DNA of 34,016 bases, taken from Phycisphaerae bacterium. Its GTDB lineage: Bacteria > Planctomycetota > Phycisphaerae > Sedimentisphaerales > Anaerohalosphaeraceae. Under the pieces are notes generated by a model, which was given only the letters and a program-made list of their open reading frames with translations, did no database searches and was not told where the DNA came from. The position numbers and the translations under genes were made by a program. The stretch lies in the NCBI GenBank assembly GCA_012729675.1, contig JAAYCR010000063.1, positions 1 through 34,016 on the forward strand. The letters run 5' to 3'. Below are positions 17,168-31,717 of this stretch, one piece after another. Within the stretch, counting starts at the first letter, position 1; every line of letters starts with the position of its first letter.

Positions 17168-17173
17168 AATGAT

Positions 17174-17201
17174 TGACTATTGACTATTGGCTATTGATTA
17201 T
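17174..17201. repeat. Four tandem 7-bp units immediately upstream of dnaJ
   Basis: TGACTAT, TGACTAT, TGGCTAT and TGATTAT follow each other without gaps. The array ends six bases before the dnaJ start codon and adjoins the inverted 7-bp arms at 17209-17284. Confidence 0.85.
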
Positions 17202-17208
17202 TAAAAGA

Positions 17209-17284
17209 AGGTAGAGGTTAGAAGTTAGAGACAAGTTCTGCTTCCAGCCTCTGCGATCTAACCTCTACCCTCTATCATCTATCA
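17209..17284. repeat. Inverted arms of 7-bp tandem units between groEL and dnaJ (empty element)
   Basis: The left arm is AGGTAGA, GGTTAGA, AGTTAGA (17209-17229). The right arm is TCTAACC, TCTACCC, TCTATCA, TCTATCA (17257-17284), the reverse complement type. The core GGTAGAGGTTAGA (17210-17222) pairs perfectly with 17257-17269. The spacer is 27 bp with no gene. The right arm begins eight bases after the groEL stop. Confidence 0.85.
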
Positions 17285-17292
17285 TCCGATCT

Positions 17293-18909
17293 TTAGCACA
17301 CTGCGCCGTGAACGACGTTTTTCTTGCTGTCGTCTTTGATGCCGGTGATAACCACGTTGGTCGTCAGCATCAGCCCGGCGACCGAGGCGGCATTCTGCAG
17401 TGCGATACGGGCAACCTTGGCGGGGTCGATAATTCCGGCCTTAACCATGTCTTCGTATTCGCCGGTGTTGGCGTTGAAGCCGATATTGCCGCTCTTTTCG
17501 AGCAATTCGGCCACTACAACGTCGCCGTGCCCGCCGCCGTTTTCGACGATCTGACGAGTGGGCGCTTTCAACGCGCCGATGAGAATGTCAAACCCGATCT
17601 TCTCGTCGCCTTTGGCTTTGGCCTTGGCCTTTTCGACCTCGGCAATCGCCCGCAGATAAATCACGCCGCCGCCGGGGATGATGCCTTCCTGTGCGGCCGC
17701 CTTGGTGGCGTGCAGGGCGTCATCCAGCAGGTCTTTGCGTTCTTTCATTTCCGACTCGGTCGCCGCGCCGGCCTTGATCACGGCCACGCCGCCGGTCAGC
17801 TTGGCCAGCCGTTCCTGCAGCTTTTCGCGGTCGTAGTCGCTGGTGGTCTTTTCGATTTGGCCGCGAATCTGTTCGCAGCGGGCCTTGATGTCTTTCTTTT
17901 TGCCCGCGCCTTCGATGATCGTGGTGGTTTCTTTGCCGACGACGATCTTCTTGGCCTGCCCCAGTTGCGACAGCTCGATCTTTTCGAGTTTGACGCCGAG
18001 GTCTTCGGTGATGACCGTCCCGCCGGTCAAAACGGCGATATCCTGAAGCATCGACTTGCGGCGGTCGCCAAAGCCGGGCGCCTTAACGGCACAGACCTTC
18101 AGCACGCCCTGAAGCCGGTTGATGACCAGCGCCGCCAGCGCCTCGCCTTCGACTTCTTCGGACACGATCACCAACTGTGCCCCCATCTGGGCGACTTTTT
18201 CCAGCAGCGGCAGCATCTCGCGCAGATTGCTGATCTTCTTTTCGTGCAGCAGAATATAGGCGTCTTCCAGAACCGCTTCCAGCGTGTCCGGATTGGTCAT
18301 AAAGTAAGGCGACTGATAGCCCTTGTCAAACTGCATGCCTTCGACGACCGTCAGCTCGGTTTCCATGCCCTTGCCTTCTTCGACCTCGATGACGCCTTCC
18401 TTGCCGACTTTGTCCATCGCATCGGCCAGAATCTGTCCGACCTCGGCGTTGTTGTTGGCGCTGATGGCGGCAACCTTGGCGATGTCCTCATGGCCTTTGA
18501 CGGGCTTGGCCGAGGCGTTGACGAACTCGGTGACTACGTCCGCGGCCTTGGTGATGCCGCGCTGCAGCGCGACGGGATTGACGCCGGCGGTTACGAACTT
18601 AAGGCCTTCGTTGTAAATTGCCTCGGCCAGTACCGTCGCGGTGGTCGTACCGTCGCCGACCAGATCGCTGGTCTTGCTGGCGACCTGATTGACCATCTTG
18701 GCGCCGATATTCTTAAACGGTTCCGGCAGTTCGATCTCTTTGCTGACCGACACGCCGTCTTTGGTAATCTTGGGCGAGCCGTAGCTCTTGTGCAGCAGCA
18801 CATTACGCCCCGTCGGCCCCATCGTAACCTTCACGGCGTCGGCCAATTGTGCCAGTCCGTCCTTAAGGTGTACCCGGGCCGTATCCTGAAACATCATTTG
18901 TTTTGCCAT
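17293..18909 (-). CDS. groEL: Chaperonin GroEL, second copy, without GGM tail
   Basis: This is a 60-kDa chaperonin subunit of 538 residues that forms the folding cage capped by GroES. The ATP-binding motif [15 protein letters not shown], the hinge/apical region and the DALHATKAA block with catalytic Asp are intact. The C-terminus is ...[16 protein letters not shown] and lacks the Gly-Gly-Met repeat tail. It is the copy next to groES (about 50 bp downstream of it) and is preceded by GGGAGGAC. dnaJ follows. Loss of the flexible tail and a terminal Cys suggest a specialised paralogue relative to the copy at 19315-20952. Confidence 0.96.
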
Positions 18910-18959
18910 TTGTATTGTCCTCCCGACTGTTCAGTCGTTGGCTGTTGTTGTAAAACCGG

Positions 18960-19250
18960 TTACTTTTCGACGATGCCGAGCACTTCGCTTTCGCGCAGAA
19001 TCTTGTAGTCTTCGCCGTCGATTTCGATGTCGCTTCCGCTGTATTTGCCGTACAGAACAACATCGTTCTTCTTGACGTTCATCGCGGCGCGGCTGCCGTT
19101 ATCCAGCAGCTTGCCGGCGCCAACGGCGATGACCTTGCCCATCAGCGGTTTTTCGCGGGCAGTGTCGGGCAGCACAATACCACCGGCGGTCTTTTCTTCT
19201 GCGTCCTGCGGCTTGACAACAATGCGATCTTCAAGGGGTAACAGCTTCAT
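18960..19250 (-). CDS. groES: Co-chaperonin GroES
   Basis: The 96-residue lid of the GroEL cage. It has the starting block LLPLEDRIVVKP and the mobile loop EEKTAGGIVLPDTAREKP that docks on GroEL. The G-KVIAVGAGK strand, YGKYSG and the ending ESEVLGIVEK are typical. It sits between the two groEL genes, so it may serve either. Confidence 0.96.
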   Translation of the reverse strand: MKLLPLEDRIVVKPQDAEEKTAGGIVLPDTAREKPLMGKVIAVGAGKLLDNGSRAAMNVKKNDVVLYGKYSGSDIEIDGEDYKILRESEVLGIVEK

Positions 19251-19299
19251 CGTTTATTCTCCTGTCGATATTATTTATTCGTTGTTTTTCTATTTCGGG

Positions 19300-19314
19300 T
19301 CGCACCGCGTGCGA
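19300..19314 (-). other. Hairpin directly after the first groEL stop
   Basis: TCGCAC-CGC-GTGCGA forms a six-pair stem with a three-base loop adjoining the groEL stop codon at 19315-19317. With no T-run it is more likely an mRNA processing or 3'-end stabilising structure than a terminator. Confidence 0.35.
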
Positions 19315-20952
19315 TTACATCATATCCATATCGTCCATCTCGCCGCCCATGCCGGCAGGGGTCTTGTCGTCCTTGGGCATTTCGGTAACCACGCAGTCGG
19401 TCGTCAGCAGCAGGCCCGCCACGGAAGCGGCGTTCTGCAGGGCGATGCGCGTCACCTTGACCGGGTCGATTACGCCGACCTCGACGAGGTCTTCGTACTT
19501 ATCCTTGTCGGCGTTGTAGCCAAAGCCGCCCTTACCCTGTGCGACTTTGTTAACGACCAGATTGCCCACCGCGCCGGCGTTCTCGGCGATGCAGTGACAC
19601 GGCATACGCAAAGCATTGGCGACAATGGCCGCACCGGTCTTTTCGTCGCCGGTCAGCTTCAGTGCCTTGACCGCCTCGATGCAGCGGATCAACGCGACGC
19701 CGCCGCCGGGGACGATGCCTTCTTCGATGGCCGCACGGGTCGCGTGCAGAGCGTCTTCGATGCGGGCCTTCTTTTCTTTCATCTCCGCTTCGCTGGCGGC
19801 CCCGACATTGATACGGGCCACGCCGCCGGTCAGCTTGGCCAGCCGTTCCTGCAGCTTTTCGCGGTCATAATCGCTGGTGGTACCCTCAATCTCGGCCTGA
19901 ATCTGGGCGATACGCCCCTGAATAGCGCCGTGAGCGCCGGCGCCTTCGACGATGACGGTATTGTCGTTGTCGATGTTGACCTTCTTGGCCTGACCGAGCT
20001 GGGTCAGTTGCACTTTGTCCAGTTCGATACCGAGGTCTTTGAAGATGGGTTCGGCGCCGGTGAGGATGGCGATATCTTCGAGCATAGCCTTGCGGCGGTC
20101 GCCGTAGCCGGGCGCCTTGACGGCGGCCACATGCAGAATGCCGCGGAGCTTGTTAACGACCAGCGTCGCCAGGGCCTCGCCTTCCACATCCTCGGCAATA
20201 ATCAGCAGCGGCCGTTTGCTCTTGGCAACCGCTTCCAACAGCGGCACGAGCTTGGCAACATTGCTGATCTTCTCTTCAAACACAAGAATAAACGGCTTTT
20301 CGAGTTCGCAGACCATCGAATCCGGGTCGGTCACAAAATGCGGCGACAGATACCCGCGGTCAAACTGCATCCCCTCGACATAATCCACATCGGTATCGAG
20401 GCTCTTGCCTTCTTCGATGGTGATGACGCCGTCTTTGCCGACCCGCATAAAGGCCTCGGCCATCTTCTTGCCGATTTCCTGGTCATTGTTGGCGCTGATG
20501 GCGGCGACATTGACGATGCTGTCCTTTTTGGCGATATCGACCGGCACGGCCAGCGTGGCCAGCTTATCGACGGCCGCGGACACGGCCTTCTGGATGCCGC
20601 GGTTGAGGCTCATCGCGTCGGCCCCGGCGGCCAGATTCTTGTAGGCGTCGCGGAACAGGGCCTCGGCCAGCACCGTCGCGGTGGTCGTGCCGTCGCCGGC
20701 GACCTTCGAGGTCTTGCTGGCGGCCTCGCGGACGAGCTTGGCGCCCATATTCTCGGCCTTGTCCAACAGTTCAATCTCCTCGGCCACCGTCACGCCGTCT
20801 TTGGTAACCGTCGGGCCGCCCCAGCCCTTGTCGATGATCGCACAGCGGCCGCGCGGGCCAAGGGTCGATTTCACCGCACTGGCCAGTTTTTCCACACCGA
20901 CCAGCAGGGCGCTGCGGGCGTCACTTTCAAACGCTAAGTCTTTTGTTGCCAT
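19315..20952 (-). CDS. groEL: Chaperonin GroEL, first copy, with Met/Asp/Gly tail
   Basis: This is a 545-residue chaperonin subunit and the first gene of the chaperone operon. It has [16 protein letters not shown], the [20 protein letters not shown] block and [10 protein letters not shown] with the catalytic Asp. The tail [21 protein letters not shown] is a variant of the usual flexible GGM tail. It differs clearly from the second copy, for example in [16 protein letters not shown] against [16 protein letters not shown]. The start is ATG 20952, preceded by AGGAGAGG. A perfect TATAAT lies upstream. No CIRCE element (TTAGCACTC-N9-GAGTGCTAA) is present. Confidence 0.96.
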
Positions 20953-20982
20953 AAGTGTTGCCTCTCCTATTGTTTAAGTTGC

Positions 20983-21018
20983 ATTATATCCAATTTAAAG
21001 AGTTCTATCTGTATAGAA
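20983..21018 (-). promoter_or_regulatory. Promoter -10 box and palindromic operator candidate of the chaperone operon
   Basis: TATAAT on the minus strand (20988-20983) lies 30 bp before ATG 20952. The -35 region has no good TTGACA. Instead it is covered by the palindrome TTCTATCTGTATAGAA (21003-21018). This layout suits repressor or activator control, but the binding protein is unknown. Confidence 0.4.
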
Positions 21019-21159
21019 ACACACTCTCTACATAAGGCTACACAGATGAGCAAATCAGATACCAGAACCACCCTCGATTTGACCGATTAAATCTTAAATA
21101 TAAAAAATATAGAGAGTTAGCGTAAAAAAAAAGTATCCCGATATATTGACTCTGCCATC

Positions 21160-21244
21160 TTCGCCCCTATGTCGAATGGGGTCATCAGCCAACTTGGCAG
21201 ACCGAGCCGAGCTTTCCCGTAGGGGCGAAACTATGTGTTCGCCC
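21160..21244. repeat. REP-like inverted repeats at the tsaB 3' end
   Basis: TTCGCCCCTA (21160-21169) is the reverse complement of TAGGGGCGAA (21220-21229). The latter also forms a tighter hairpin, GGGCGAA (21223-21229) with TTCGCCC (21238-21244). The last part overlaps the end of tsaB, supplying its final residues. Such GGGGCGAA...TTCGCCCC motifs are commonly dispersed in bacterial genomes. Confidence 0.55.
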
Positions 21245-21968
21245 TGTCCTTTTCTCGTTTTTCGACGGCGTCGGGTTTTCGGATATAGGCGGGCACCAAG
21301 GTATAGGGGTCGGCAAAGTGTCCCTGTTCGGCCATCTTTTGACCGACGGTATAGACGCCGGATGCGGTCACAGACCAGAATGCCTCATCGAGCGGGCGGG
21401 TCAGCGGGCCGGAAAATCGGTCGGCATAGTACGTCAGCCCCTCGCCCAGCAGACCGACGGGGATATTGTCCTCATTTATACGTGCCATAAGTTCTTCCGG
21501 GTAAAGCAGCGTGCTGGACAGCAGCTTTTCCCATCGGTCACCGCTGCGTTCATACAGGGCGGCAAAGAAACGGCCCTGCTTGGCATCGAGAATGCAGGCC
21601 GCACGAGTCAGCCATGAGCCGGTTTGAGTGCAATAGGCCACAGCGTTCTGAGCCAGGGCATCTAAGGTATCGACGGCGACAATCTGTGTATTTACGGCAT
21701 AAGCCATCATTATAGAAAGGGTTACAGCTATTCGGATACCGGTAAAGCTGCCGGGGCCGCTGGTGATGTATAGCCGGTCGATTTGGCCGGGCCTAATGTT
21801 AACCTTGGACAACAGCCCGTCCATAACGTCAAACAGCTCGGCATTATGACGCATAAAACCGGAAAAAGAAGATTCACTTAGAATGGTATTTCCCATGCCA
21901 AGCGCCACCGATCCCACGCGCCCGGAGGTTTCGATTGCTAATCTGTACGTCTGTTCTGAATTGGACAC
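21231..21968 (-). CDS. tsaB: tRNA threonylcarbamoyladenosine biosynthesis protein TsaB
   Basis: TsaB partners TsaD and TsaE in transferring the threonylcarbamoyl group to A37 of ANN-reading tRNAs. The 245 residues start with LAIETSGRVGSVALG, carry the family signature ITSGPGSFTGIRIAVT at about 85-100 and continue VDTLDALAQNA. They end in a basic YIRKPDAVEKREK segment. The start is GTG 21968 with GGAG upstream. The final residues (about DRANT) are encoded by REP-like sequence. tsaE lies elsewhere in this window (29764-30225); tsaD and tsaC do not. Confidence 0.93.
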   Translation of the reverse strand: MSNSEQTYRLAIETSGRVGSVALGMGNTILSESSFSGFMRHNAELFDVMDGLLSKVNIRPGQIDRLYITSGPGSFTGIRIAVTLSIMMAYAVNTQIVAVDTLDALAQNAVAYCTQTGSWLTRAACILDAKQGRFFAALYERSGDRWEKLLSSTLLYPEELMARINEDNIPVGLLGEGLTYYADRFSGPLTRPLDEAFWSVTASGVYTVGQKMAEQGHFADPYTLVPAYIRKPDAVEKREKDRANT

Positions 21969-22006
21969 ACCAAAACTCCATAGCCTCTCTAATTGCCGAT
22001 GCCGAA

Positions 22007-22035
22007 CTTATACAATTTACCAACATTAAAAACAA
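22007..22035 (-). promoter_or_regulatory. Possible tsaB promoter
   Basis: On the minus strand TTGTTT (22035-22030), 17 bases, then TATAAG (22012-22007), about 40 bases before GTG 21968. The -35 match is weak. Confidence 0.4.
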
Positions 22036-22067
22036 GCATTGTTTGGAAAAAGTTTCAGTTTTTACAC

Positions 22068-22096
22068 TTGCATTAATTTTTTCTTGGATATACACT
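22068..22096 (+). promoter_or_regulatory. Possible promoter of the secretin-like gene
   Basis: TTGCAT (22068-22073), 17 bases, then TACACT (22091-22096), divergent from tsaB. The leader to 22190 would be about 90 bases. Confidence 0.35.
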
Positions 22097-22189
22097 TAGC
22101 CGTCTGATGGCGGAGGTATCCGCTGGTGGGTGTTGGTGTAGGATTTAAATTGATAAATGACTTCGAAAAATTATTTGCGGAGGATTATT

Positions 22190-25081
22190 GTGCAGATGGT
22201 TTCAGTTTCTCACAATTATCGTACAGCGTCCCGACGCGGTGTAACCCTTTGTCTGACGACAATTATCACGGGGATGGCCATTGTCGCGTTTGCCCAGCCT
22301 GCCGAAGAACGGGCACGGCAGGCAAGGATCGACTCCTTTATCCAGATCGCTCGCGAGCAAGTCAACCGCGGATATTATCAGCACGCCGAAATCGAGTTGG
22401 ACAAGGCCGCGACTGCGGAATTTGCGCCGTTTGTAACCGAGTCGCAGAAGCGAGAAATCGCCGCGCTGCTGCAAACGATCCACACCGCCGCCAACACCGC
22501 CGCCGAGCAGCGGCAGGCCATCGAGCAAGCCCTGCGGCAAAGCGATGCCCTGGCGGCACAGGGAAACTACGCACAGGCTGCCTCGTTACTGCGCCAAATT
22601 GAGCGCAGTCCTTACCTGGCCGAACATGAAAAACAGATCGTGGCCGCGTCGCTGATAGAGTACGACGATAAAAGCAAAACCCAAGCGGTCCAATTGGCCG
22701 TCGAAGACCTGATGCCGCAGAACACCGCAACAGCTCAAACGATTGTCGTTCAAGAACCGGTTGCGCCCGCGACGTATGATCAAACGCCGCCGGCAACTGA
22801 CCTGCGATCCGAAACGGATGCCGAAGACTCCTATCTGCAAGTAATCCGGCGCGAACGGGCGGTGCGGATCGATTATACGACAGCGATTGTCAATGATGCG
22901 ATGTCGCGATCACGCGCCCTGCTGCAGGAAAACCGATTCGAGGAGGCACGGCAGGTACTGCGAAACGCGATGTCCACCGTCGAACGCAATAAACTTCTGC
23001 TGGGCGATGCGCTGTACGCCGAGTATATGGCTCAACTGAACAATGAAGAACAGACGCTTAACGAACAGCAGCACGTCTGGCAAGCCCAGCAGGATCAGCG
23101 GCGGGTCGAAGAGGCGGCGACAATAACCGACACCATTCGCGACACCATCGAGGAACAGCGGAAACAGGCCATTGAAGACTATATGGATCGCGCATACGCC
23201 TTTCAGGCCGAGGAGCGATACGAAGAGGCTTTGGGACAATTGGAACTGTTATTGGGGGTTGACCCGCTGCACCAACGTGCCCTGATGATGAAACAGTCGC
23301 TGGAGCATTGGACACGGTATCGCGAGCAGCGACGTATCCAGGACGAGATCGAGCGGGAAGAATTGGATGTGCTGATGGAAGCCACTAGCAAGCAAATCCC
23401 GTATGCCGAAGAGATCACCTATTTCCGCAACTGGAAAGAGATCGCCGCGCGCCGTGAACAAAATCTTTTAGAAACGATGAGTCCGGAAGACATCTTGGTC
23501 AATCGGCAGCTTGACGAACGGGTCGATTTGTCAATGCTGACCGAATATACCACGCTGGCCGAAGCGATCGATTTGGTGCGCCAGTCGGTGAGCCCCCCGC
23601 TGGCCATTGTGGTGCAATGGGGCGATTTGAGTATGAATGCGTTTGTCGAACGCGATACGCCGGTGAATATGTCCGGCGAAGGGTTGGTTTCGGTTGTGCT
23701 GCGAACGGCACTGAATCGCATCCTTCAGGCGGTCAGCAGTGCCGCCATGGCGGACTTGGGGTTTGTCCTTGAAGACGGCGTAATAACTATCGCGACGGTC
23801 GAGTCCTTGCCGACCAGCTTTAGGAACGAAGTGTACGACGTGGCCGACCTGCTCAATCCCCCGGCCAACGGCGGTGGCGGCATGTACGGCGGCGGCGGCA
23901 TGTACGGCGGTGGCGGCATGTACGGCGGTGGCGGCGGCATGTACGGCGGTGGCGGCATGTACGGCGGCGGTGGCGGCGTCGGGAACTGGCAGTCACAATA
24001 TCGCGGCAGTCAATTGATCTGGGTGATCCAGCAGACCATCAATCCGGAAAGTTGGTATGAAGAAGGTGGAGAAGGCCGCATCAATCAATACAGCGAAAAC
24101 AAGCTGCTCGTCTGGCAGACACCGGAAGTCCACAAACAAATCAGAGAATTCCTGGAGATGCTTCGTATCGGTCTGGGAGAGCAAGTCGCAGTCGAAGCAC
24201 GATTTCTCGTGGTGGGTGAGAACTTCCTCCAAGATATCGGGCTCGACCTGCACACTATCAATCTTAGAGTCGGCGGTCCATTCAATAAGGGAGGTACCGG
24301 CGAACCCGGCGTATTAGGGATTGCGCAATCGACACGGGATCACGTCATCCCAACGGGGACGAATGTACCCGGCTCACTGGCCGGCACCTTAACACAACCG
24401 GGTTTAAGTCTGACCTCAAACATTACATTCGATGACCTCGTTGTCGATTTTATCATTCAAGCTACACAAGCGCACAGAAACTCCCGGACGTTGAACGCTC
24501 CCAAAGCGGTGGTGATGAACGGGGAAACGGCATCGTTATCCGTCGATACTGAAACACGTATCGTATCGAACAGTTCTTTGGTTACCGAGTCGGTGGGCAC
24601 CGGAGATGTTCCATTGCTCACCACCTATTGGGATAGAGAACTCGAAAGTTTAAATACCGGCATTCAGATGTCGATTACACCGACAATCACCGCTGATAAA
24701 AAGTATGTCCTTTTGCTTATCAATGCGAATCTTACAGATTTGTTGGCTGTGTCAACGCAGCAAGTGACCGCGTTGGGTCCTAATAACGAGTTGCTAACGG
24801 ATCAATTCGCGTTGCCGACGACACAGAACAGTTCGATTAATACCCGCGTCAATGTGCCGGACCGCGGGACCGTAATGCTGGGCGGCTTGACGCTGGCGGC
24901 CGAAAACGAACGCGATTCCGGTATTCCGATCCTCAGCAAAATTCCGATTCTGAACCTGTTGTTTTCCAACCATAGCGTAGTCAGAGATAAACACATTCTG
25001 CTGATCTTGGTCAAACCGACGATTATGCTTCAGGAAGAGAACGAACAGGACGCCATCGCGGCGATGGAAAAAAGAAAGTAA
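22190..25081 (+). CDS. Secretin-like outer-membrane protein with Gly-Met-Tyr repeat
   Basis: The protein has 963 residues from GTG 22190, chosen because GCGGAGGA lies just upstream; an earlier ATG at 22157 lacks one. A signal peptide (basic RR, then LCLTTIITGMAIVAFAQ) is followed by about 380 residues of charged helical repeats resembling TPR units (AREQVNRGYYQHAEIELDKA, AYAFQAEERYEEALGQLELLL). Residues 561-598 are five G4-5-M-Y repeats. The secretin domain follows (about 660-950): VAVEARFLVVGENFLQDIG, NAPKAVVMNGETA, VPDRGTVMLGGLT and ILSKIPILNLLF...KHILLILVKPTI. Secretins form multimeric outer-membrane pores for type II/III secretion or type IV pili. No other secretion gene is adjacent, so its system is unknown. 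Confidence 0.88.
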   Translation: MQMVSVSHNYRTASRRGVTLCLTTIITGMAIVAFAQPAEERARQARIDSFIQIAREQVNRGYYQHAEIELDKAATAEFAPFVTESQKREIAALLQTIHTAANTAAEQRQAIEQALRQSDALAAQGNYAQAASLLRQIERSPYLAEHEKQIVAASLIEYDDKSKTQAVQLAVEDLMPQNTATAQTIVVQEPVAPATYDQTPPATDLRSETDAEDSYLQVIRRERAVRIDYTTAIVNDAMSRSRALLQENRFEEARQVLRNAMSTVERNKLLLGDALYAEYMAQLNNEEQTLNEQQHVWQAQQDQRRVEEAATITDTIRDTIEEQRKQAIEDYMDRAYAFQAEERYEEALGQLELLLGVDPLHQRALMMKQSLEHWTRYREQRRIQDEIEREELDVLMEATSKQIPYAEEITYFRNWKEIAARREQNLLETMSPEDILVNRQLDERVDLSMLTEYTTLAEAIDLVRQSVSPPLAIVVQWGDLSMNAFVERDTPVNMSGEGLVSVVLRTALNRILQAVSSAAMADLGFVLEDGVITIATVESLPTSFRNEVYDVADLLNPPANGGGGMYGGGGMYGGGGMYGGGGGMYGGGGMYGGGGGVGNWQSQYRGSQLIWVIQQTINPESWYEEGGEGRINQYSENKLLVWQTPEVHKQIREFLEMLRIGLGEQVAVEARFLVVGENFLQDIGLDLHTINLRVGGPFNKGGTGEPGVLGIAQSTRDHVIPTGTNVPGSLAGTLTQPGLSLTSNITFDDLVVDFIIQATQAHRNSRTLNAPKAVVMNGETASLSVDTETRIVSNSSLVTESVGTGDVPLLTTYWDRELESLNTGIQMSITPTITADKKYVLLLINANLTDLLAVSTQQVTALGPNNELLTDQFALPTTQNSSINTRVNVPDRGTVMLGGLTLAAENERDSGIPILSKIPILNLLFSNHSVVRDKHILLILVKPTIMLQEENEQDAIAAMEKRK

Positions 25082-25110
25082 TCGATTGACTTTAACGAAC
25101 AAACATAGAG

Positions 25111-25144
25111 GGACGCCGACATTTTGTCCGGCGTCCTTTTTTTT
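25111..25144 (+). terminator. Rho-independent terminator after the secretin-like gene
   Basis: GGACGCCG (25111-25118) pairs with CGGCGTCC (25129-25136), followed by eight T residues, 30 bp after the stop. Confidence 0.8.
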
Positions 25145-25163
25145 GCGCGGATCAGAAGCAGTA

Positions 25164-25188
25164 CCCCCCCCCCCCCCCAAAAAAAAAA
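25164..25188. repeat. C15-A10 homopolymer tract
   Basis: Fifteen C residues are followed directly by ten A residues between the convergent ends of the secretin gene and gatB. Nothing comparable occurs elsewhere in the window. Confidence 0.9.
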
Positions 25189-25213
25189 CACCAGAACTAA
25201 TAATCTTCTGTAT

Positions 25214-26683
25214 TTATGGCAGCGAAGCAAGTCTTTGGTTGAGGACTTGAGAGACCAGCTTCGGATTCGCTTGTCCTTTGCTTTTTTGAATGACTTGCCC
25301 AGTCAAAAAACCGAGGGCTTTTTTGGCCTTTTTCGGGTTGTCTTTGGCGTCCTGAACGGCCTGCGCGTTTTCGGCCAGAACCTGTTCGACCAGGGCTTCA
25401 ATTTCGCCGGTGTCGCTTTTCTGAATGAGATTCTTCGCTTCAGCAATCTGTGCGGGATCGCCGCCGGAGCGGGTCATTTCCTCAAAGATCACCGCCGCCG
25501 AGGTGGCACTGATCTGGCCTTCATCGGTCATTTTGGCCAATACGGCAAGGTGTTCGGGCGATACCCCGAGTGCATCCACCGTCGTCTGCCGTTCATTGGC
25601 CAGTTTCAGCCCCGTCTGGGTCAGCAGATTGCAAACGCGCTTGGGGTCACCGCCGCAGCGCACGGCCGCATCAAATAACACGCCCGTCGCCTTTTCGCCG
25701 GTCAAGACCTGGGCGTCATAATCGCTCAGGCCGTAATCGCCGACAAACCGTTTCTGAATCGCCAACGGCAGTTCGCAAAGCCGCGCCTTGATCTCCTCAA
25801 GCCACTGGTCTGAAACCACCACCGGCACCAGATCCGGGTCGGGAAAGTAGCGATAATCGTGCGCCTCTTCCTTTTCGCGCTGCAGGACGGTCTGCTGGTT
25901 CACGTCGTCCCAGCCATAGGTGCTTTTATTGCCCATCTGCATAGTTTTGCCGGTGGTCAAAAATTCATCCAACTGGCGGTTGACTTCATAGGCGATGCTG
26001 CGTTCGATGGCGCGGAAGCTGTTAAGGTTCTTGACCTCGGTGATGGGAGTCTTGAAGACCTGGCCGCCGCGGGTGATGTGCAGGTTGACATTCGGTTCAA
26101 ACCGCATATGGCCTTTCTGCATATCGGCCTCGGAGACGCCCAGATAGCGGACGATGCGCTGCAGCTCTTGGGCCGCCAGCCGCACCTCGGCGGGGCTGTT
26201 CATATCCGGCTCGGTAACAATCTCTAAAAGCGGCGTGCAGGAGCGATTCAAATCCACGCCTGAATAATTGCCGAAGGTGTGAACGTTTTTGCCCGCATCT
26301 TCTTCAAGATGCGCTCGGCGGATGCGGATCTTTTTGGTCGTGCCGTCGTCCAGCAGAATATCCAGATAACCGTTCTCGGTTATCGGCAGGTCGTATTGGC
26401 TGATCTGGTAGTTCTTCGGCAGATCGGGGTAGTAATAGCTCTTGCGGTCCCACTTGGTAAAGCGCGCGATGTCGCAGTTGAGGGCCAGCCCGGTCAGTAT
26501 GCCGAATTCGACGGCGGCCTTGTTCAGCACCGGCAGCGCGCCCGGCATCCCGATACACACCGGGCACACCCGCGTATTGGGCGCGTGGCCATACGCCAAC
26601 TCACACCCGCAGAACATCTTTGTTTTGGTCGCCAGTTGAACGTGAATTTCTAACCCAACAATAATCTTGTAGTCTAAACTCAT
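25214..26683 (-). CDS. gatB: Asp-tRNA(Asn)/Glu-tRNA(Gln) amidotransferase subunit B
   Basis: GatB is the kinase/tRNA-binding subunit of GatCAB, which converts Glu-tRNA(Gln) or Asp-tRNA(Asn) to the amide form. The 489 residues start MSLDYKIIVGLEIHVQLATKTKMFC, with the zinc-type CGCELAYGHAPNTRVCPVC region and DLPKNYQISQYDLPI. The C-terminal YqeY-like helical domain ends ...KSKGQANPKLVSQVLNQRL. ATG 26683 is chosen over 26725 because AGGAAAG precedes it and homologues start here. Unusually, about 1.1 kb of repeats and two accessory genes separate it from gatA in the same operon. Confidence 0.97.
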   Translation of the reverse strand: MSLDYKIIVGLEIHVQLATKTKMFCGCELAYGHAPNTRVCPVCIGMPGALPVLNKAAVEFGILTGLALNCDIARFTKWDRKSYYYPDLPKNYQISQYDLPITENGYLDILLDDGTTKKIRIRRAHLEEDAGKNVHTFGNYSGVDLNRSCTPLLEIVTEPDMNSPAEVRLAAQELQRIVRYLGVSEADMQKGHMRFEPNVNLHITRGGQVFKTPITEVKNLNSFRAIERSIAYEVNRQLDEFLTTGKTMQMGNKSTYGWDDVNQQTVLQREKEEAHDYRYFPDPDLVPVVVSDQWLEEIKARLCELPLAIQKRFVGDYGLSDYDAQVLTGEKATGVLFDAAVRCGGDPKRVCNLLTQTGLKLANERQTTVDALGVSPEHLAVLAKMTDEGQISATSAAVIFEEMTRSGGDPAQIAEAKNLIQKSDTGEIEALVEQVLAENAQAVQDAKDNPKKAKKALGFLTGQVIQKSKGQANPKLVSQVLNQRLASLP

Positions 26684-26702
26684 TCTTACTTTCCTTATTT
26701 TT

Positions 26703-26729
26703 GCCACAGAGGGCACAGAGGACACAGAG
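26703..26729 (+). repeat. Left arm, three 9-bp units (NNCACAGAG), before gatB
   Basis: GCCACAGAG, GGCACAGAG and GACACAGAG are contiguous, 19 bp upstream of the gatB start. They are inverted relative to the arrays at 27371-27397 and 27779-27805, so the transcript could pair across the intervening genes. Confidence 0.9.
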
Positions 26730-26772
26730 TTGTTTTATTAACTTTTTTCAGAAGAGATCACTATCCAAACAT

Positions 26773-27363
26773 CTACACATTTAAAAAAATAAACCATAAA
26801 TAAAAAGTGCTATCTGTTTTATGCCATGCGTATTGAAATATGTCATTACCAATAGAGCAGAAAGCATCTCCTCTTAGCATTTTAATATCCGGTTTCATCA
26901 ATTGTATCTCAATAGATGAAGAAGGATGAATATAAGTTCCATCTTCTTTGAAAACGATACCCCTTGCGATTTTGCTGAGTATTCTGTTGATCCGGCTTGT
27001 TTCAGCGAAGAAAACTTCGCCGTTTCCCAAGATAATTCCACCTTCTGATAATATATCTACAGAATTAATATGGTCATTTATATAACTTTTGTATTTATGG
27101 GACTCCGATCTATTGAGACTTCGTAGTATTTTTTCTTTCCATAAATCTTTCATTTCTTTGCATTCAGAAAAAGCGGCAACTGACAAGAAAAAAAGGAAAT
27201 ACTCATCATCTTTTTCATGCTCCTTATTGCACTTGATGTGCGTTGGAACCGTTAGAAGATTAGACGTTTTCTTCGGGAAGATGCTTTTGGGTGGAATGTG
27301 ATCCTTAGAGTCAGCTTTATCTTTTCCACATAAATAGCAAATTTTATCATTTTTTGATATCAA
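26773..27363 (-). CDS. HNH-endonuclease-like protein, cargo between gatA and gatB
   Basis: The protein has 196 residues from TTG 27363. The reading frame stays open upstream through the 9-bp repeat array to 27399, where it would encode the artefact-like PQRTQRAQR; no ATG exists near the N-terminus. CYLCGKDKADSKDHIPPKSIFP, then VPTHIKCNKEHEKDDEYF, fits an HNH-type zinc-finger nuclease fold: a CxxC pair, a D-H catalytic pair and a C-N ligand position. The rest of the protein is not recognised. Base composition is visibly AT-richer than the gat genes, which suggests transfer. Function is not known; a homing or element-mobilising nuclease is an inference from fold and context. Confidence 0.7.
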   Translation of the reverse strand: MISKNDKICYLCGKDKADSKDHIPPKSIFPKKTSNLLTVPTHIKCNKEHEKDDEYFLFFLSVAAFSECKEMKDLWKEKILRSLNRSESHKYKSYINDHINSVDILSEGGIILGNGEVFFAETSRINRILSKIARGIVFKEDGTYIHPSSSIEIQLMKPDIKMLRGDAFCSIGNDIFQYAWHKTDSTFYLWFIFLNV

Positions 27364-27370
27364 TGTATTT

Positions 27371-27397
27371 CTCTGTGCTCTCTGTGTCCTCTGTGGC
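27371..27397 (-). repeat. Middle array of three 9-bp units
   Basis: On the coding (minus) strand: GCCACAGAG, GACACAGAG, AGCACAGAG. It starts eight bases after the GxxExxY stop and ends seven bases before the HNH start, dividing the two cargo genes. Its AGAGGA/AGAG content can act as a ribosome-binding site. Confidence 0.9.
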
Positions 27398-27405
27398 AAA
27401 AAAAA

Positions 27406-27771
27406 CTATACAGACACCCGTTTGATACCGTTAATCAACCTATCTTCGCCGAAGTTGATAATCAAGCCGCGTTTTAGTTTTGTTGCTTTCAAATATGAGA
27501 TCGTTTGCGAGAGCGCAACGGCCGTCGGCAGCTTGACGGCTTTTAATTCCACGACGACCTCATTCTCAACGAGAAGGTCGATCTTTAGCCCCTTGATTTC
27601 ACGCCCTTTATAGACAATATCAACAGGCACTTGCCGTTGGTGCTGAATACTCTGCAATTGAAATTCATGGCAAAGCGCCTCTTCGTAAATGGACTCCAGC
27701 AATCCCGGCCCCAATTCCTTATGGACTTCAATGGCCGCCCCAATGATTCGTTCTGTAAGTTTATCTGCCAT
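27406..27771 (-). CDS. GxxExxY family protein, cargo between gatA and gatB
   Basis: The protein has 121 residues beginning MADKLTERIIGAAIEVHKELGPG. The signature G-L-L-E-S-I-Y (residues 23-29) defines the GxxExxY family. The later VDLLVENEVVVELKA-like region (here IDLLVENEVVVELKAVKL) and QTISYLKATKLKRGLIINFG complete it. The D...E-x-K arrangement resembles a restriction-nuclease-like core, but the function of the family is unknown. ATG 27771 is preceded by CACAGAGATATAAA, so the last repeat unit appears to supply the ribosome-binding site. A longer frame to 27942 overlaps gatA and is rejected. The gene is bracketed by 9-bp repeat arrays on both sides. Confidence 0.88.
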   Translation of the reverse strand: MADKLTERIIGAAIEVHKELGPGLLESIYEEALCHEFQLQSIQHQRQVPVDIVYKGREIKGLKIDLLVENEVVVELKAVKLPTAVALSQTISYLKATKLKRGLIINFGEDRLINGIKRVSV

Positions 27772-27778
27772 TTTATAT

Positions 27779-27805
27779 CTCTGTGTTCTCTGTGTCCTCT
27801 GTGGC
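27779..27805 (-). repeat. Right arm, three 9-bp units after gatA
   Basis: On the coding strand: GCCACAGAG, GACACAGAG, AACACAGAG. It starts 12 bases after the gatA stop codon and ends seven bases before the GxxExxY start. It has the same orientation as 27371-27397 and is inverted relative to 26703-26729. Confidence 0.9.
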
Positions 27806-27817
27806 AAAAAAAAGCGT

Positions 27818-29281
27818 TTACAGTAAAGGGCTTCGTTTGTGCCAGTCGGTGGCGTTTTGGTACATTTGCGCGATGCGCAGCAGTTTATCTTCCGTAAAGG
27901 CGTCGGTGATAATCTGCAAACCGATAGGCAGGTTGTTCTCATCGAAGCCGCAGGGAACGCTCATGCCCGGCAGGCCGGCCAGATTGACGGCGATGGTATA
28001 GACATCGGCCAGATACATCTTGAGCGGGTCGTCGGTCTTTTCGCCGATCTTAAAGGCGGTCGTCGGGCTGACCGGCAACATCAGACAGTCGGCCTTTTCA
28101 AAGGCGGCGATAAAATCCCGACGGATCAGCGTTCTGACTTTCAGCGCCTTGAGGTAATAAGCGTCATAATAGCCGCTGGACAGGGCAAACGTACCGAGCA
28201 TAATACGGCGTTTGACTTCGGCGCCAAAGGCCTCGCTCCGCGATTTGGTATAGACCTCGACATAATCGTCGGCTGCGCCGCTGCGATAACCGTAGTGTAC
28301 CCCGTCGAAGCGGGCCAGATTGCTGGATGCCTCGGCGGTGGCGATGACATAGTAGGTTGCGATGGCGTAAGGGTAATGCGGCATCGTAACTTCAACCGGT
28401 TCGGCGCCAAGCGAACGATAGACAGCCATACTGTCTTCGAATGCTTTTCGCACAGCCGGATCGGCGCCGGGGTGTAATTCCGGTACGTAAGCGATACGAA
28501 GGCCGTCCAGAGGCCGGTTCAGATCGGCCAGATAGTCGATTTTCGGTGCAAGAGTCTCCGCCACGCTGGTGCTGTCCCGCCGGTCATGACCGGCGATGAC
28601 GTTCATCATCAGCGCCGCGTCGGCGACGTCCCGCGTCAACGATCCGATCTGGTCAAAGCTGGAGCCGTAGGTGACCAGCCCGTAGCGGGACACCCGGCCA
28701 TAGGTGGGCTTAAGGCCGGTGATGCCGCAGAACGAAGCGGGCTGGCGGATCGAGCCGCCGGTGTCGCTGCCCAGCGCCGCCGCACACAGCCCCGCCGCAA
28801 CCGCCGCAGCCGAGCCGCCGCTGCTGCCGCCGGCGACGCGGGCGTTGTCCCAGGGATTGACCGTTTTTCGCAGGGGGGAGGTTTCGGTGCTGGAGCCCAT
28901 GGCGAACTCATCGAGATTGGTCTTGCCGATGATGACGGCGTCGGCGGCCAGCAATTGCTCGATGACGTGGGCGTCGTACGGGGCGTGAAAATGTTCGAGC
29001 ATTTTTGAGCCGCAGGTCGTCGGGCCGAAGGCGGTACACATATTATCCTTAACGGCGACGGGCACACCCGCCAGAAGGCCGACGGGCTGGCCGGCGGCGA
29101 TTTTTTTGTCGATGGCCTCGGCATCCCGCAGGGCCTTTTCGGCAAACGTCGAGATATACGCCCCCAGCGTCGGATCGTATTTTTCAATACGGCCAAGGCA
29201 GTCCCGAACCGCTTCGACACTGGATAATTTCTTTGCCGCAATCGCGTTACGAAGCTCAAGAGCTGTCAGTCGTTCACTCAT
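27818..29281 (-). CDS. gatA: Asp-tRNA(Asn)/Glu-tRNA(Gln) amidotransferase subunit A
   Basis: GatA is the glutaminase subunit of GatCAB and supplies ammonia from glutamine. The 487 residues hold the amidase Ser-cisSer-Lys triad: Lys in GVPVAVKDNMC, the serines in AGGSSGGSAAAVAAG and the block ALGSDTGGSIRQPASFCG. C-terminal NLAGLPGMSVPCGFDENNLPIGLQI is typical. The start ATG 29281 lies 27 bp after gatC and the two are surely co-transcribed. The cargo genes begin 46 bp after its stop. Confidence 0.97.
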   Translation of the reverse strand: MSERLTALELRNAIAAKKLSSVEAVRDCLGRIEKYDPTLGAYISTFAEKALRDAEAIDKKIAAGQPVGLLAGVPVAVKDNMCTAFGPTTCGSKMLEHFHAPYDAHVIEQLLAADAVIIGKTNLDEFAMGSSTETSPLRKTVNPWDNARVAGGSSGGSAAAVAAGLCAAALGSDTGGSIRQPASFCGITGLKPTYGRVSRYGLVTYGSSFDQIGSLTRDVADAALMMNVIAGHDRRDSTSVAETLAPKIDYLADLNRPLDGLRIAYVPELHPGADPAVRKAFEDSMAVYRSLGAEPVEVTMPHYPYAIATYYVIATAEASSNLARFDGVHYGYRSGAADDYVEVYTKSRSEAFGAEVKRRIMLGTFALSSGYYDAYYLKALKVRTLIRRDFIAAFEKADCLMLPVSPTTAFKIGEKTDDPLKMYLADVYTIAVNLAGLPGMSVPCGFDENNLPIGLQIITDAFTEDKLLRIAQMYQNATDWHKRSPLL

Positions 29282-29308
29282 TGATTTTACCTTTTGCCTT
29301 TTCCTTTT

Positions 29309-29617
29309 TTACGCGCCTGAGTTGTCGTCAAGTATTTTGGGGACGATAAAATAGCCGTCCGTCTGGTCGGGGGCGTTGGCCAGTGCCTGCTCGTTGCTCA
29401 GCGACGGCTGCGGCACATCCTCCCGAAACACATTTTGCACCGGCAGGCAGTGGGCCAGCGGCTCAACCTGCTCGGTGTCCAGGACGTTGATTTTTTCGAT
29501 ATAGCCGACGATGTCGCTCAACTGGGCGCTGAATTGGGCGATTTCCGACTCGCTCAATTCCAGCCGGCTCAGCACGGCGACCCGCTCAACCATTTTTCTG
29601 TCAATTTGCAGGCTCAT
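29309..29617 (-). CDS. gatC: Asp-tRNA(Asn)/Glu-tRNA(Gln) amidotransferase subunit C
   Basis: GatC is the small belt-like subunit stabilising the GatA-GatB complex. The 102 residues show the family pattern VERVAVLSRLELSESEIAQFSAQLSDIVGYIEKINVLDT and VFREDVPQPS, ending FIVPKILDDN. ATG 29617 has AGGAG upstream. It is the first of the gat genes here, followed by gatA. Confidence 0.95.
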   Translation of the reverse strand: MSLQIDRKMVERVAVLSRLELSESEIAQFSAQLSDIVGYIEKINVLDTEQVEPLAHCLPVQNVFREDVPQPSLSNEQALANAPDQTDGYFIVPKILDDNSGA

Positions 29618-29643
29618 GGCGTACTCCTGTTAAACTAACGTAG

Positions 29644-29662
29644 CACGGGCTTCCAGCCCGTG
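29644..29662. repeat. REP-like hairpin between tsaE and gatC
   Basis: CACGGGCT-TCC-AGCCCGTG is a perfect eight-pair hairpin, 26 bp upstream of gatC. The run of A lies on its plus-strand side, so it is not a terminator for the leftward operon. The motif looks like a dispersed palindromic repeat. Confidence 0.6.
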
Positions 29663-29763
29663 AAAAAAGTTCTCATAATTTTGCCACAACTATACCACTT
29701 ATGGCCGCTTCCGGCAAGGACAAATAGCGGCATTCGGACGAAGAATTGCCGGAGACGACCCGA

Positions 29764-30225
29764 TTATGCAATGCCGGACGGGGCGTTTTCAAGCGTGATC
29801 GTCCGCACATCGCCGCCTCCATGGAAAAGCCGAATCGTAAGCGGATTCAGCGACGCCATAGACTCCCACACCCGGTCGGCCCACTCGACCAGCACCACCG
29901 AGTCCGGGCGGCTGTATTCCTCAACCCCGAGGGCCTCAAACTCGGCCGCCGATTCCAGCCGGTAGGCGTCAATATGATAGACCTGCATCCCCCCGCCCCA
30001 CGCAAAATACTCATTGACCAGCACAAACGTCGGGCTGGTCACCAAGTCGTCCTGCTCGACGCCGAGGCCGTGCGCAATCCCCTTAATCAAATGCGTCTTG
30101 CCCGTCCCCAGATTGCCGATCAACGCAATCACCTCCCCACCCTTCAAGGCCTCTCCAATCCGCCGCCCCAGCGCAATCGTCTCAGCGGCACTCTGCGTTG
30201 AAATTTCAATTTTCCTGTTAGTCAT
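29764..30225 (-). CDS. tsaE: tRNA threonylcarbamoyladenosine biosynthesis ATPase TsaE
   Basis: TsaE is the P-loop ATPase that works with TsaB and TsaD in t6A37 synthesis. From ATG 30225 (MTNRKIEIST) the protein has 153 residues: Walker A GNLGTGKTHLIKG, then TSPTFVLVNEYF, VYHIDAYRL and VVLVEWADRV. The longer frame to 30288 runs into the 9-bp repeat element upstream and is rejected. No strong Shine-Dalgarno is visible, perhaps because the repeat element sits 28 bp upstream. It follows thiL in the operon. Confidence 0.93.
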   Translation of the reverse strand: MTNRKIEISTQSAAETIALGRRIGEALKGGEVIALIGNLGTGKTHLIKGIAHGLGVEQDDLVTSPTFVLVNEYFAWGGGMQVYHIDAYRLESAAEFEALGVEEYSRPDSVVLVEWADRVWESMASLNPLTIRLFHGGGDVRTITLENAPSGIA

Positions 30226-30253
30226 CGTATCAGCTTTCGCAATTTTATTTAAA

Positions 30254-30323
30254 ACCATGAAGCCCATGAAGCACACGAAGTTTTCCAATTATTTTTCTTT
30301 GTGATCTTCATGTTCTTCATGGT
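30254..30323. repeat. Inverted arms of 9-bp units between thiL and tsaE (empty element)
   Basis: The left arm is ACCATGAAG, CCCATGAAG, CACACGAAG (30254-30280). The right arm, read on the minus strand, is ACCATGAAG, AACATGAAG, ATCACAAAG (30323-30297). Each arm is exactly 27 bp. They are separated by a 16-bp AT-rich spacer and can form a long hairpin. The right arm starts 11 bases after the thiL stop codon. Confidence 0.9.
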
Positions 30324-30334
30324 TAATACTCTTT

Positions 30335-31243
30335 CTACAAATGGTCAAATCCTTTGGGTTCCAGTTTTGCTATCTTGCCATCAAGTGTTTGCAATCTCAT
30401 GCCGCATTCGGCGGTGATTTCGCCGATGCGGGTAATTGAAATACTTTTTAATCCCGCCAGCTTGCCAAATTCCGAAGGCGCGATTGCAAAGAGCAGTTCA
30501 AAATCTTCACCGTCGTTCAATGCAGCCGCAAGCGGGTCACCGCCCTGCCGTGCGGCCTCGGAGACGGGCAGCATCGCGGCCTCTACTATCGCCCCGACGT
30601 TGCTTTGCGTGCAGATGCGGTTCAGGTCAGTGCTTAACCCGTCGGTAATATCCATCATCGAATGAATACGGGCGGCCTTTGTGATGGCCAGCGCCTCGTT
30701 GACCCGCGGCACAAACGTCAAGTGTTTGTGCGCCAGCGATCCGCCCAGCGTCCCCGTCACACAAATCACATCTCCGGCCTGTGCCCCGTTTCGCCGCACG
30801 GGGGCGTGATGGCCGCTCGGAACGCTCAGCATCGTCACACAAATCGCCAGCCGGTCGCCACCCTGCCACTTCGTAATATCCCCGCCGATCAGCTCACAGT
30901 CAAACATCCGCCCGGCCCGCAGCAGCCCGGCGTGCAGTTCTTTGAGCCGCTCGCCGCCGAACCCCTGCGGCAGGCCCACCGCACACACCGCACAGATCGG
31001 CACGCTCGCCATGGCCGCACAATCGCTCAGACTGGCCGCCATCGCCTTATACCCCGCCTGTTCCAGCGAACACGACGACAGGTCAAAATGCGACCCGTCC
31101 AAAAGCATATCCGTCGTGACAAGCACCGACTCGCTCGGCGCAACGTTCACCTGCGCCATATCGTCACCGATACCAATGGGGAATCTTGCCGCGTCAATCT
31201 TGCTTTGTTGAGCAAACCAGGATGTCATTTTGTCTTCTTTCAT
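30335..31243 (-). CDS. thiL: Thiamine-monophosphate kinase
   Basis: ThiL phosphorylates thiamine monophosphate to thiamine diphosphate with ATP. The 302 residues from ATG 31243 carry the ATP/Mg block GIGDDMAQV near residue 24, [13 protein letters not shown], then [27 protein letters not shown] and [14 protein letters not shown], with [10 protein letters not shown] near the C-terminus. Two starts are possible (31243 or 31228). I prefer 31243 because [12 protein letters not shown] fits the usual spacing to GIGDD. It is flanked by repeat elements on both sides: 8-bp units upstream, 9-bp units downstream. Confidence 0.93.
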
Positions 31244-31251
31244 TGTATTAT

Positions 31252-31283
31252 GAACACAAGAACTCAAGGACTCAAGAACTCAA
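31252..31283 (+). repeat. Left arm, four 8-bp units, between the four-helix gene and thiL
   Basis: GAACACAA, GAACTCAA, GGACTCAA and GAACTCAA are contiguous, eight bases before the thiL start. They adjoin (three bases) the stop of the four-helix-bundle gene. The array is inverted relative to 31670-31717. Confidence 0.9.
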
Positions 31284-31286
31284 GAA

Positions 31287-31646
31287 TTAGTTGTTTTCGA
31301 TTTTAGAGCGATAAAGAGACAACAACTTGCTGACTTCTTCGGCCTGTTCTTTCATCTGTGCCGTCTGACAATAGGCCAAATCCTGTGCCAGAATCAGATA
31401 ATATCGAATCTCTTCAAGTGAACCGTAAGCAATCGTCAGGAAATGCGATTTTTCCGCCTTCGACTTCTTTTTGAATCCCTCAGCAATGTTTGCCGGAATT
31501 GAAACAGCCGCCCGCCTCATTTGGCTGACAAGCCCATATAATTCTGATTTGGGAAAATCCTGGGTTGATTTATACACAGAAAGCACAAGCTGATGTGCTT
31601 TTTGCCACACAAATAAATCTTCAAATTTCTTCGCCGGCTGATTCAT
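31287..31646 (-). CDS. Four-helix bundle protein (S23 / 23S rRNA intervening-sequence type)
   Basis: The protein has 119 residues. FEDLFVWQKAHQLVLSVY, then SELYGLVSQMRRAAVSIPANIAEGF and AYGSLEEIRYYLILAQDL are the hallmarks of the S23/four-helix-bundle family. These proteins were first seen encoded in intervening sequences of 23S rRNA and are related to the Avd accessory protein of diversity-generating retroelements. The molecular role is unknown; the family forms basic pentameric barrels that bind nucleic acid. ATG 31646 has GGGAG upstream. The gene is bracketed by inverted arrays of 8-bp units and inserted between argH and thiL, so it looks like cargo rather than part of the operon's metabolism. 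Confidence 0.92.
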   Translation of the reverse strand: MNQPAKKFEDLFVWQKAHQLVLSVYKSTQDFPKSELYGLVSQMRRAAVSIPANIAEGFKKKSKAEKSHFLTIAYGSLEEIRYYLILAQDLAYCQTAQMKEQAEEVSKLLSLYRSKIENN

Positions 31647-31669
31647 TCAGTTACTCCCTTCTTCTTTCA

Positions 31670-31717
31670 TTCTTGTGTTCTTGAGTTCTTGTGTTCTTGT
31701 GTTCTTGTGTTCTTGTG
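31670..31717 (-). repeat. Right arm, six 8-bp units after argH
   Basis: On the coding strand the unit is CACAAGAA (one copy CTCAAGAA), six times in a row. It starts ten bases after the argH stop and ends 23 bases before the four-helix gene start. Confidence 0.9.

Follow-up and report, generated by a model that had tools for sequence, protein, structure and literature searches.

At four gene junctions of a 34,016-nt contig from a Phycisphaerae bacterium (GenBank assembly GCA_012729675.1, JAAYCR010000063.1), short tandem arrays form inverted arms, in two cases together with small genes. This contig, referred to as the window, is C54 of the 96 contigs of a 2.80-Mb draft genome (G000, the own genome). 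Three of the junctions (gatA/gatB, thiL/tsaE, and argH/thiL) lie in a minus-strand operon with the gene order argH - 4HB - thiL - tsaE - gatC - gatA - GxxExxY - HNH-like - gatB; the fourth separates groEL and dnaJ. 4HB denotes a four-helix-bundle protein of the 23S intervening sequence (IVS)/S23 family (PF05635), and GxxExxY a protein of family PF13366/TIGR04256. All four junctions were seen by direct reading and with Tandem Repeats Finder. Their features are:

17172..17202, minus strand: solitary TTGACTA array immediately 5' of the dnaJ start (Tandem Repeats Finder)
17206..17229, minus strand: second arm of the cargo-less groEL/dnaJ hairpin; inverted score 14 against the first arm, spacer of about 27 bp
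17257..17286, minus strand: first arm of the groEL/dnaJ hairpin; 7-bp units, GATAGAG/TTAGAGG (Tandem Repeats Finder and direct reading)
26703..26729, minus strand: distal, inverted gatA/gatB arm 5' of gatB; 9-bp units, inverted score 19
26773..27363, minus strand: HNH-like gene (PF14279, E 6e-4, under the family cut-off); start uncertain, open frame extends back into the array
27370..27397, minus strand: second gatA/gatB arm, oriented as the first, 5' of the HNH-like gene; 9-bp units
27406..27771, minus strand: GxxExxY gene, PD-(D/E)XK nuclease superfamily (TIGR04256 2.6e-40, PF13366 7e-39)
27778..27805, minus strand: arm 3' of the gatA stop and 5' of the GxxExxY gene; 9-bp units, GCCACAGAGGACACAGAG...
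29283..29308, minus strand: a fifth, solitary array (AAAAGGC) between gatC and gatA, in the same operon; by eye it resembles the word found at L008, a 4HB element of the own genome
30253..30280, minus strand: second arm of the thiL/tsaE hairpin (Tandem Repeats Finder and direct reading)
30295..30324, minus strand: first arm of the cargo-less thiL/tsaE hairpin; 9-bp arm, CATGAAG units, spacer of about 16 bp
31252..31286, minus strand: inverted distal arm 5' of thiL; 8-bp units (Tandem Repeats Finder and partner scan)
31287..31646, minus strand: 4HB gene, 23S rRNA IVS protein (IVP)/S23 family (PF05635 1.1e-38, TIGR02436 1.1e-35)
31670..31722, minus strand: arm 3' of the argH stop; 8-bp GAACACAA/GAACTCAA units, inverted score 26, complement control likewise 26

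The original prediction had described two empty elements and two with small genes, none with a transposase, and this description was borne out: family searches identified the window cargo as 4HB, GxxExxY, or a weak HNH match, and a transposase was not among them. For the argH/thiL 4HB protein, the nearest solved structure by sequence is 2gsc. The distances from the upstream stop codon to the arm had been put at 8, 12, 11, and 10 bp for groEL/dnaJ, gatA/gatB, thiL/tsaE, and argH/thiL; a recount gave approximately 6, 12, 10, and 8 nt. The arms of the empty elements carry the words of cargo-bearing elements elsewhere in the genome. Both groEL/dnaJ arms match the word of 4HB element L004 (first arm, score 17, next locus 5; second arm, score 16, next 8), and both thiL/tsaE arms that of GxxExxY element L012 (score 17, next 9; score 16, next 7). 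The array before dnaJ, whose best inverted score of 6 marks it as solitary, has the word of 4HB element L011 (score 20, next 10). Another TTGACTA-type array adjoins a transposase-like fragment (REP-associated tyrosine transposase, RAYT, by eye) with ends resembling repetitive extragenic palindromes (REPs) at L028:5930-6440.

The own genome encodes 11 PF05635 and 5 PF13366 proteins, and inverted arms spanning the gene at a score of at least 14 were found for 12 of these 16. Mismatched arm pairs never reached that score (0/240, maximum 12). Only four of 83 control genes of 90–200 aa had arms; three belong to the 4HB/GxxExxY families themselves, and the fourth is a transposase-like fragment. The four misses comprise a start called too early (L008; score 15 in the 196-locus survey below), weak arms (L015, score 10), two genes within the arms (L016), and both arms lying upstream (L003, by eye). 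Many of these elements are situated inside core operons (by eye), among them a GxxExxY element between rpoB and rpoC (L014:1390-1920, contig C26). In relatives, 25 of 29 rpoB/rpoC loci lacked the element and had junctions of 33–128 bp; four could not be parsed with confidence. Two or three of the element-free junctions (L038, L040, L059) harbor their own hairpin or small arrays.

Miniature inverted-repeat transposable elements and REP doublets (REPINs), the latter with their RAYT, are small, have inverted ends, and are suspected to be mobilized in trans, although REPIN ends are palindromic REPs and not protein-linked tandem arrays. The present elements could similarly be moved by resident Y1 (RAYT/IS200) transposases: four Y1 matches were obtained in the own genome, single arrays lie near two of them, and a further Y1-like fragment (by eye) is found beside a TTGACTA-type array. 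However, none of the four Y1 loci has paired short-unit arms, and two show palindromic REP-like ends (by eye). A Y1 transposase was rejected as the engine on these grounds, and such an origin appears very improbable.

Arrays of 6–12-bp units were then counted in a 434-kb sample made up of the window and twenty 20-kb stretches. Their positions are not random, in line with the original prediction: 46 of 53 arrays are intergenic and 7 coding, corresponding to 0.645 versus 0.019 arrays per kb, a 33-fold difference. Intergenic periods are confined to 7–10 bp. Five first-order Markov copies of the intergenic DNA contained 0, 0, 1, 0, and 0 arrays, compared to 46 in the real sequence. An inverted partner (within 1.5 kb, score of at least 14) was present for 14 of the 46 intergenic arrays, with 1 in the reversed and 2 in the complement control and 7 direct partners. 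The architecture at the window junctions is confirmed as real and genome-wide, with the limit that most arrays are solitary. Among the cargo-less arrays, 22 of 39 carry the word of an element of the own genome, whereas equal numbers of foreign arms gave 5–11 (15 draws). Cargo-less hairpins and solitary arrays are probably derivatives of the elements, and many share their word with an element of the genome in which they lie. One inverted pair surrounds a Bro-N gene (L025; PF02498, 2e-12) and another a gene without Pfam match. The Bro-N pair lies in a hot spot of 15 arrays with many different words (L025:5434-12674, about 45.4–52.7 kb of contig C26).

The survey was extended to 196 loci, namely the 16 of the own genome, 80 named contigs from many phyla (near the query subfamily; the best 80 of 520 matches), 30 and 40 further 4HB loci, and 30 GxxExxY loci. 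The further loci are a subset of the matches in 24 genomes behind the named contigs, and the 80 and the 30 overlap in part. Inverted arms with a score of at least 14 were found at 129 of 196 loci (57/81, 47/80, and 25/35), representing 117 distinct arm pairs; approximately 12 of the 129 are duplicates. Reversed controls gave 1/0/0, Markov controls 0/0/0, and direct repeats 10/7/9. As words are shared among the 80 loci, mismatched pairs frequently scored at least 14 there (196/800 versus 52/80 matched pairs), and this control was replaced by the Markov and reversed ones. Within the 24 genomes, which were chosen for carrying a 4HB gene, 4HB occurs in all (1–23 copies each) and GxxExxY in 21. No 4HB gene was found in 14 well-known control genomes. 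Carriage by phages was rejected, one 4HB query having matched none of 50,697 phage records with a cut-off of E 1e-5. On a tree of the 80 4HB proteins, the phylum changes 37 times, compared to a minimum of 17 and a mean of 53.3 after shuffling. As this tree is poorly resolved, transfer of 4HB between phyla is suggested by the sequences, not proved. A loose D...[EDV]xK pattern is present in 33 of 35 GxxExxY proteins; no solved structure was found for this family by sequence up to E 0.1.

Unit length differs with the cargo. In deduplicated periodic arm pairs, 7-bp units were found in 75 of 83 4HB elements and in none of 13 GxxExxY elements (p 5e-11), the latter having units of 8–10 bp. The word also follows the protein. 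Over between-genome pairs of the 93 armed 4HB loci, word and protein similarity correlated with a rho of 0.60, and with 0.27 in a diverse subset of 46; for GxxExxY, rho was 0.23 (n=25). In each case, 0 of 500 permutations were as high; host relatedness stands outside the model in all three. Alike arms occurred in 61% of 4HB pairs at a protein similarity of at least 0.7 and in 0.4% at 0.1–0.2, and unlike 4HB proteins within one genome never shared them (0/56 pairs). At one Anabaena junction, four genomes (G047, G065, G064, and G041) have a GxxExxY gene with the word CGCAGAG, and G067 has a different GxxExxY gene with CGCAAAG; word and protein were exchanged together (a sixth genome was not alignable on the left). 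The original prediction of a mobile-element family defined by architecture rather than sequence is therefore supported as to mobility, but not as to architecture alone, since the word goes with the cargo protein subfamily and the unit length with the cargo type. In G067, approximately 40 CTGACTC copies without cargo occupy the position of a 4HB element in sibling genomes (L332; one flank alone aligns).

Orthologous junctions in relatives were empty or different. At gatA/gatB, neither cargo nor arms were seen in G003 (same genus, ~78% identical), G023, and G004; G002 has a longer cargo-free junction, G015 a different cargo-less hairpin, and G019 a decayed GxxExxY-like frame with other arms (all by eye). 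At argH/thiL, G019 and G023 have an empty junction and G015 a filled one; four other loci tried did not span it. The groEL/dnaJ arrays of the window were found in none of seven relatives, and G015 has another A-rich 7-bp array there. In two genomes of the same genus (G003 and G002; loci L336 and L337), a gene for a ~265-aa SGNH-like lipoprotein (by eye) is located between groEL and dnaJ. At thiL/tsaE, half of the element only is retained in G001, and the other relatives were not alignable.

Insertions could be delimited at base level at five cyanobacterial junctions with empty relatives (~90–99% identical), four of them (A, B, B2, and C) on large plasmids with empty relatives of ~90–98% identity. 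Insertions range from 403 to 599 bp. Among further empty/filled cases, several relatives that were not alignable on one flank were left out of the count.

Anabaena catenula 4HB element: 464 bp relative to a sibling whose flank is 99% identical, 12-bp repeat CATTAAAAGTCA
Plasmid junction A: 428 bp, 5-bp repeat GTAAT at the stop codon
Plasmid junction B: 417–599 bp, at a TAG stop, no clear repeat
Plasmid junction B2: 506 bp, 3-bp ATG repeat, overlapping stop/start split
Plasmid junction C: 403 bp, ~16 bp unmatched in the closest empty sequence

In the Anabaena catenula case and at junction C, the insertion lies ~10–12 codons ahead of the end of the upstream gene, which now terminates at a stop contributed by the element (by eye). 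Two elements have themselves been interrupted: on Nostoc plasmid pNPM1, a 4HB gene is split by a small element likewise ending in CTGACTC-type units (L364:530-1094), and in L318 (G066) a palindromic stretch of ~45 bp is inserted within a GxxExxY arm.

The original prediction was open to refutation by conservation of the arrays in all relatives; the empty and filled sites show the contrary. They also bear on two other explanations. The arrays could be regulatory stems or global-regulator binding sites belonging to the operons, in keeping with the annotation of paired tandem octamer and heptamer arrays in Geobacter (PMC2700814) and with the interpretation of Beggiatoaceae heptamers near start codons as translational signals (PMC4679880), as these sources present them. 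Arrays are, however, absent or replaced at orthologous junctions, different words stand at one spot, and cargo genes lie within. A conserved hairpin (intrinsic terminator or attenuator) was not found at orthologous junctions in the relatives compared. As a general account, regulatory stems are refuted by the empty sites, and we regard them as a highly unlikely origin. Alternatively, replication slippage might have produced local microsatellites with chance inversions and no element at all. Unit numbers do vary among siblings, and solitary arrays are common, but words common to many phyla and tied to a protein family, nearly array-free Markov copies, and insertions opposite empty sites do not agree with this. 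Slippage, refuted as the main account by the filled/empty pairs, is exceedingly improbable in that role and remains a secondary process.

The elements occupy a characteristic position. Considering upstream neighbors of at least 80 aa, 104 of 115 are on the strand of the cargo, and at co-directional sites the cargo is in sense orientation in 81 of 84 cases. Counted from the upstream stop, the median distance to the start of the arm is 4 nt (quartiles -1 and 11; n=104). This agrees with the recognition of stop codons proposed by the original prediction, but the same picture could arise from selection, from which recognition is inseparable, since insertion harms least at this place.

Sense orientation is also expected if the elements act at the RNA level, with arms pairing in the operon mRNA, RNase III excising the cargo, and pairing keeping the arms alike. 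The inverted arms fit this model, 4HB is the IVS protein, and the Coxiella IVS is described as being excised by RNase III (PMC4990558). In addition, arms are more alike in register than shifted by one unit (4HB 0.915 versus 0.833, n=65; GxxExxY 0.919 versus 0.705, n=10), values inflated by the choice of register in the alignment. Mismatches between the arms of the 129 loci, duplicates included, showed no G:U bias (94 wobble-type versus 83 other transitions, p 0.23), so there is no sign of RNA stem upkeep, and the mRNA stems offered as an alternative by the original prediction gained no support. Upkeep of an RNA stem was rejected for this reason. Furthermore, unit number differs on one arm only between orthologous plasmid copies (L349 versus L355), and the model leaves the linkage of word and protein family unexplained. 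Overall, we consider excision at the RNA level rather unlikely. A search of 40 4HB loci from outside the window against Rfam at gathering scores yielded one group II intron, in L079, where it is ~0.7 kb away from the 4HB gene; by this search, the elements are not group I or II introns.

A retroelement, whose RNA would be bound by an Avd-like 4HB protein and serve as template for a reverse transcriptase, with insertion through target-primed synthesis, would likewise account for sense orientation and for variable target repeats. The 4HB protein is related to Avd of diversity-generating retroelements (1.6e-8; bAvd 8.8e-6; both under the family cut-offs), and a reverse transcriptase is present in 17 of 25 carrier genomes. 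In the other eight, PF00078 was not found, although drafts may miss genes; among them are G047, which has a fresh insertion, and G055, in which 13 copies are present. Reverse transcriptase was rejected as the engine on this basis, and a retroelement seems quite unlikely.

The elements probably belong to a class of small mobile ("intervening") elements that is very widespread and has inverted arms of tandem words and usually one small gene inside. The usual cargo is 4HB, mostly with 7-bp words, or GxxExxY with words of 8–10 bp, and sometimes an HNH-like or Bro-N gene. Their presence in many phyla, their sites at operon junctions and the 3' ends of genes, the sense orientation of the cargo, the existence of empty sites, and the linkage of word and protein were all observed. 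As for the mechanism, the cargo protein might recognize the repeated units as an array of putative binding sites and draw the ends together, with strands cut and joined either by a nuclease (GxxExxY or HNH) or by enzymes that belong to the host or act in trans. Cutting by such enzymes would fit the variable target repeats. The cargo would be translated as an additional cistron of the host operon. Protein recognition combined with nuclease or host cutting is favored in view of the missing wobble bias, the unit differences on one arm, the D...[EDV]xK pattern, and the carriers without a PF00078 match. Linkers between matched cores vary (13 dinucleotides among 182, half of them AC; 1–3 nt in GxxExxY arms), with the cores set by the search pattern.

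Several points weigh against this interpretation. Arms at threshold were lacking at 67 of the 196 loci. Direct repeats at arm borders did not exceed the control over the 129 loci, so that target-site duplication, which the original prediction proposed to look for, was rejected as a general mark; repeats occur at single loci only. The in-register agreement of the arms exceeds what independent binding sites need. The median net charge of 157 4HB proteins is merely +2, and we know of no catalytic function for this family. The correspondence of word and protein may reflect shared travel rather than recognition, and linkage by itself would produce some of the signal. The 4HB protein at argH/thiL in G015 is 61% identical to that of the window, yet its word is TAGGAATA instead of GAACACAA (both 8-mers). 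Finally, 4HB was inside rRNA at none of 40 scanned loci (of the 80), and the tie to the rRNA IVS therefore rests on the protein family and published text.

The closest known system is the IVS of 23S rRNA in Coxiella burnetii, described as a small selfish insertion with an S23/4HB gene, complementary borders, and horizontal spread (PMC4990558). According to the same description, two to three tandem GACAGAT heptamers, variable in number between strains, precede the start of S23p. The present elements share with the IVS, and with the terminal inverted repeats of DNA transposons, their complementary borders. The S23p/4HB gene is common to the IVS and the 4HB elements, but not to the GxxExxY elements. 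Whereas the IVS resides in rRNA helices, the present elements are found in operon junctions of protein genes, use many different words, occur in many copies per genome, and include other cargo. The 23S rRNA IVS would be the instance of such an element that has long been known, located in an rRNA gene.

For Geobacter metallireducens, the genome paper of 2009 describes paired tandem arrays of GTTGCTYN, TCTCCGTS, and MTYCTGA, with the two members of a pair on opposite strands and a variable distance between them, predicted to be regulator sites (PMC2700814). The present arrays resemble these classes 1–3 in being short, tandem, and paired on opposite strands. In the 80-contig 4HB set, the usual word is MTYCTGA, and CTCCGTG is found in GxxExxY arms (L185, L208). 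The account of the Geobacter arrays concerns one genome and, in the part dealing with them, states no link to S23p or GxxExxY and no mobility (PMC2700814). TAACTGA arrays, contained in the arms of own locus L005, were reported by MacGregor in 2015 as intergenic repeats of Beggiatoaceae, Cyanobacteria, and Bacteroidetes with suspected horizontal spread (PMC4679880). Those arrays are nearly all direct (169 sets, one inverted) and read as translational signals, with no 4HB link stated in the sections concerned (PMC4679880). Avd of diversity-generating retroelements is a related four-helix bundle, but a reverse transcriptase was not matched in all present carriers. Among cyanobacterial repeats, the short tandemly repeated repetitive sequences and small dispersed repeats, reportedly treated by Elhai and coworkers in 2008, are said to include tandem heptamers; we know of no cargo gene or paired arms associated with them. 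In the portions of the open-access literature covered, no paper was found that joins S23p or GxxExxY genes to tandem-unit arms, apart from the Coxiella IVS.

Taken further, and put forward tentatively, as something a little short of an even chance, the elements could form a new transposase-less class. In it, a 4HB or PD-(D/E)XK protein would define and mobilize the DNA between inverted arrays of its own word, such elements would spread through operons of many bacterial phyla as cistrons in sense orientation, and cargo-less arrays would depend on mobilization in trans; the rRNA IVS, the Geobacter pairs, and many heptamer repeats would belong to it. S23p and GxxExxY are named families, but no account of their role is known to us, and short intergenic tandem repeats have previously been described case by case, as regulatory. 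Once proteins and repeats are connected, each acquires a role that can be tested: a protein and its word would together constitute a mobile element. The absence of 4HB from the well-known genomes may be why the link went unseen. The cyanobacterial plasmids supply filled and empty sites, the survey a candidate protein–word code, and the findings a reason for re-annotating odd hypothetical peptides translated from such arrays.

Apart from the intergenic arrays, and unrelated to them, the window contains 18/39-bp repeats at 23868-23977, within a large open frame at 22157-25081.

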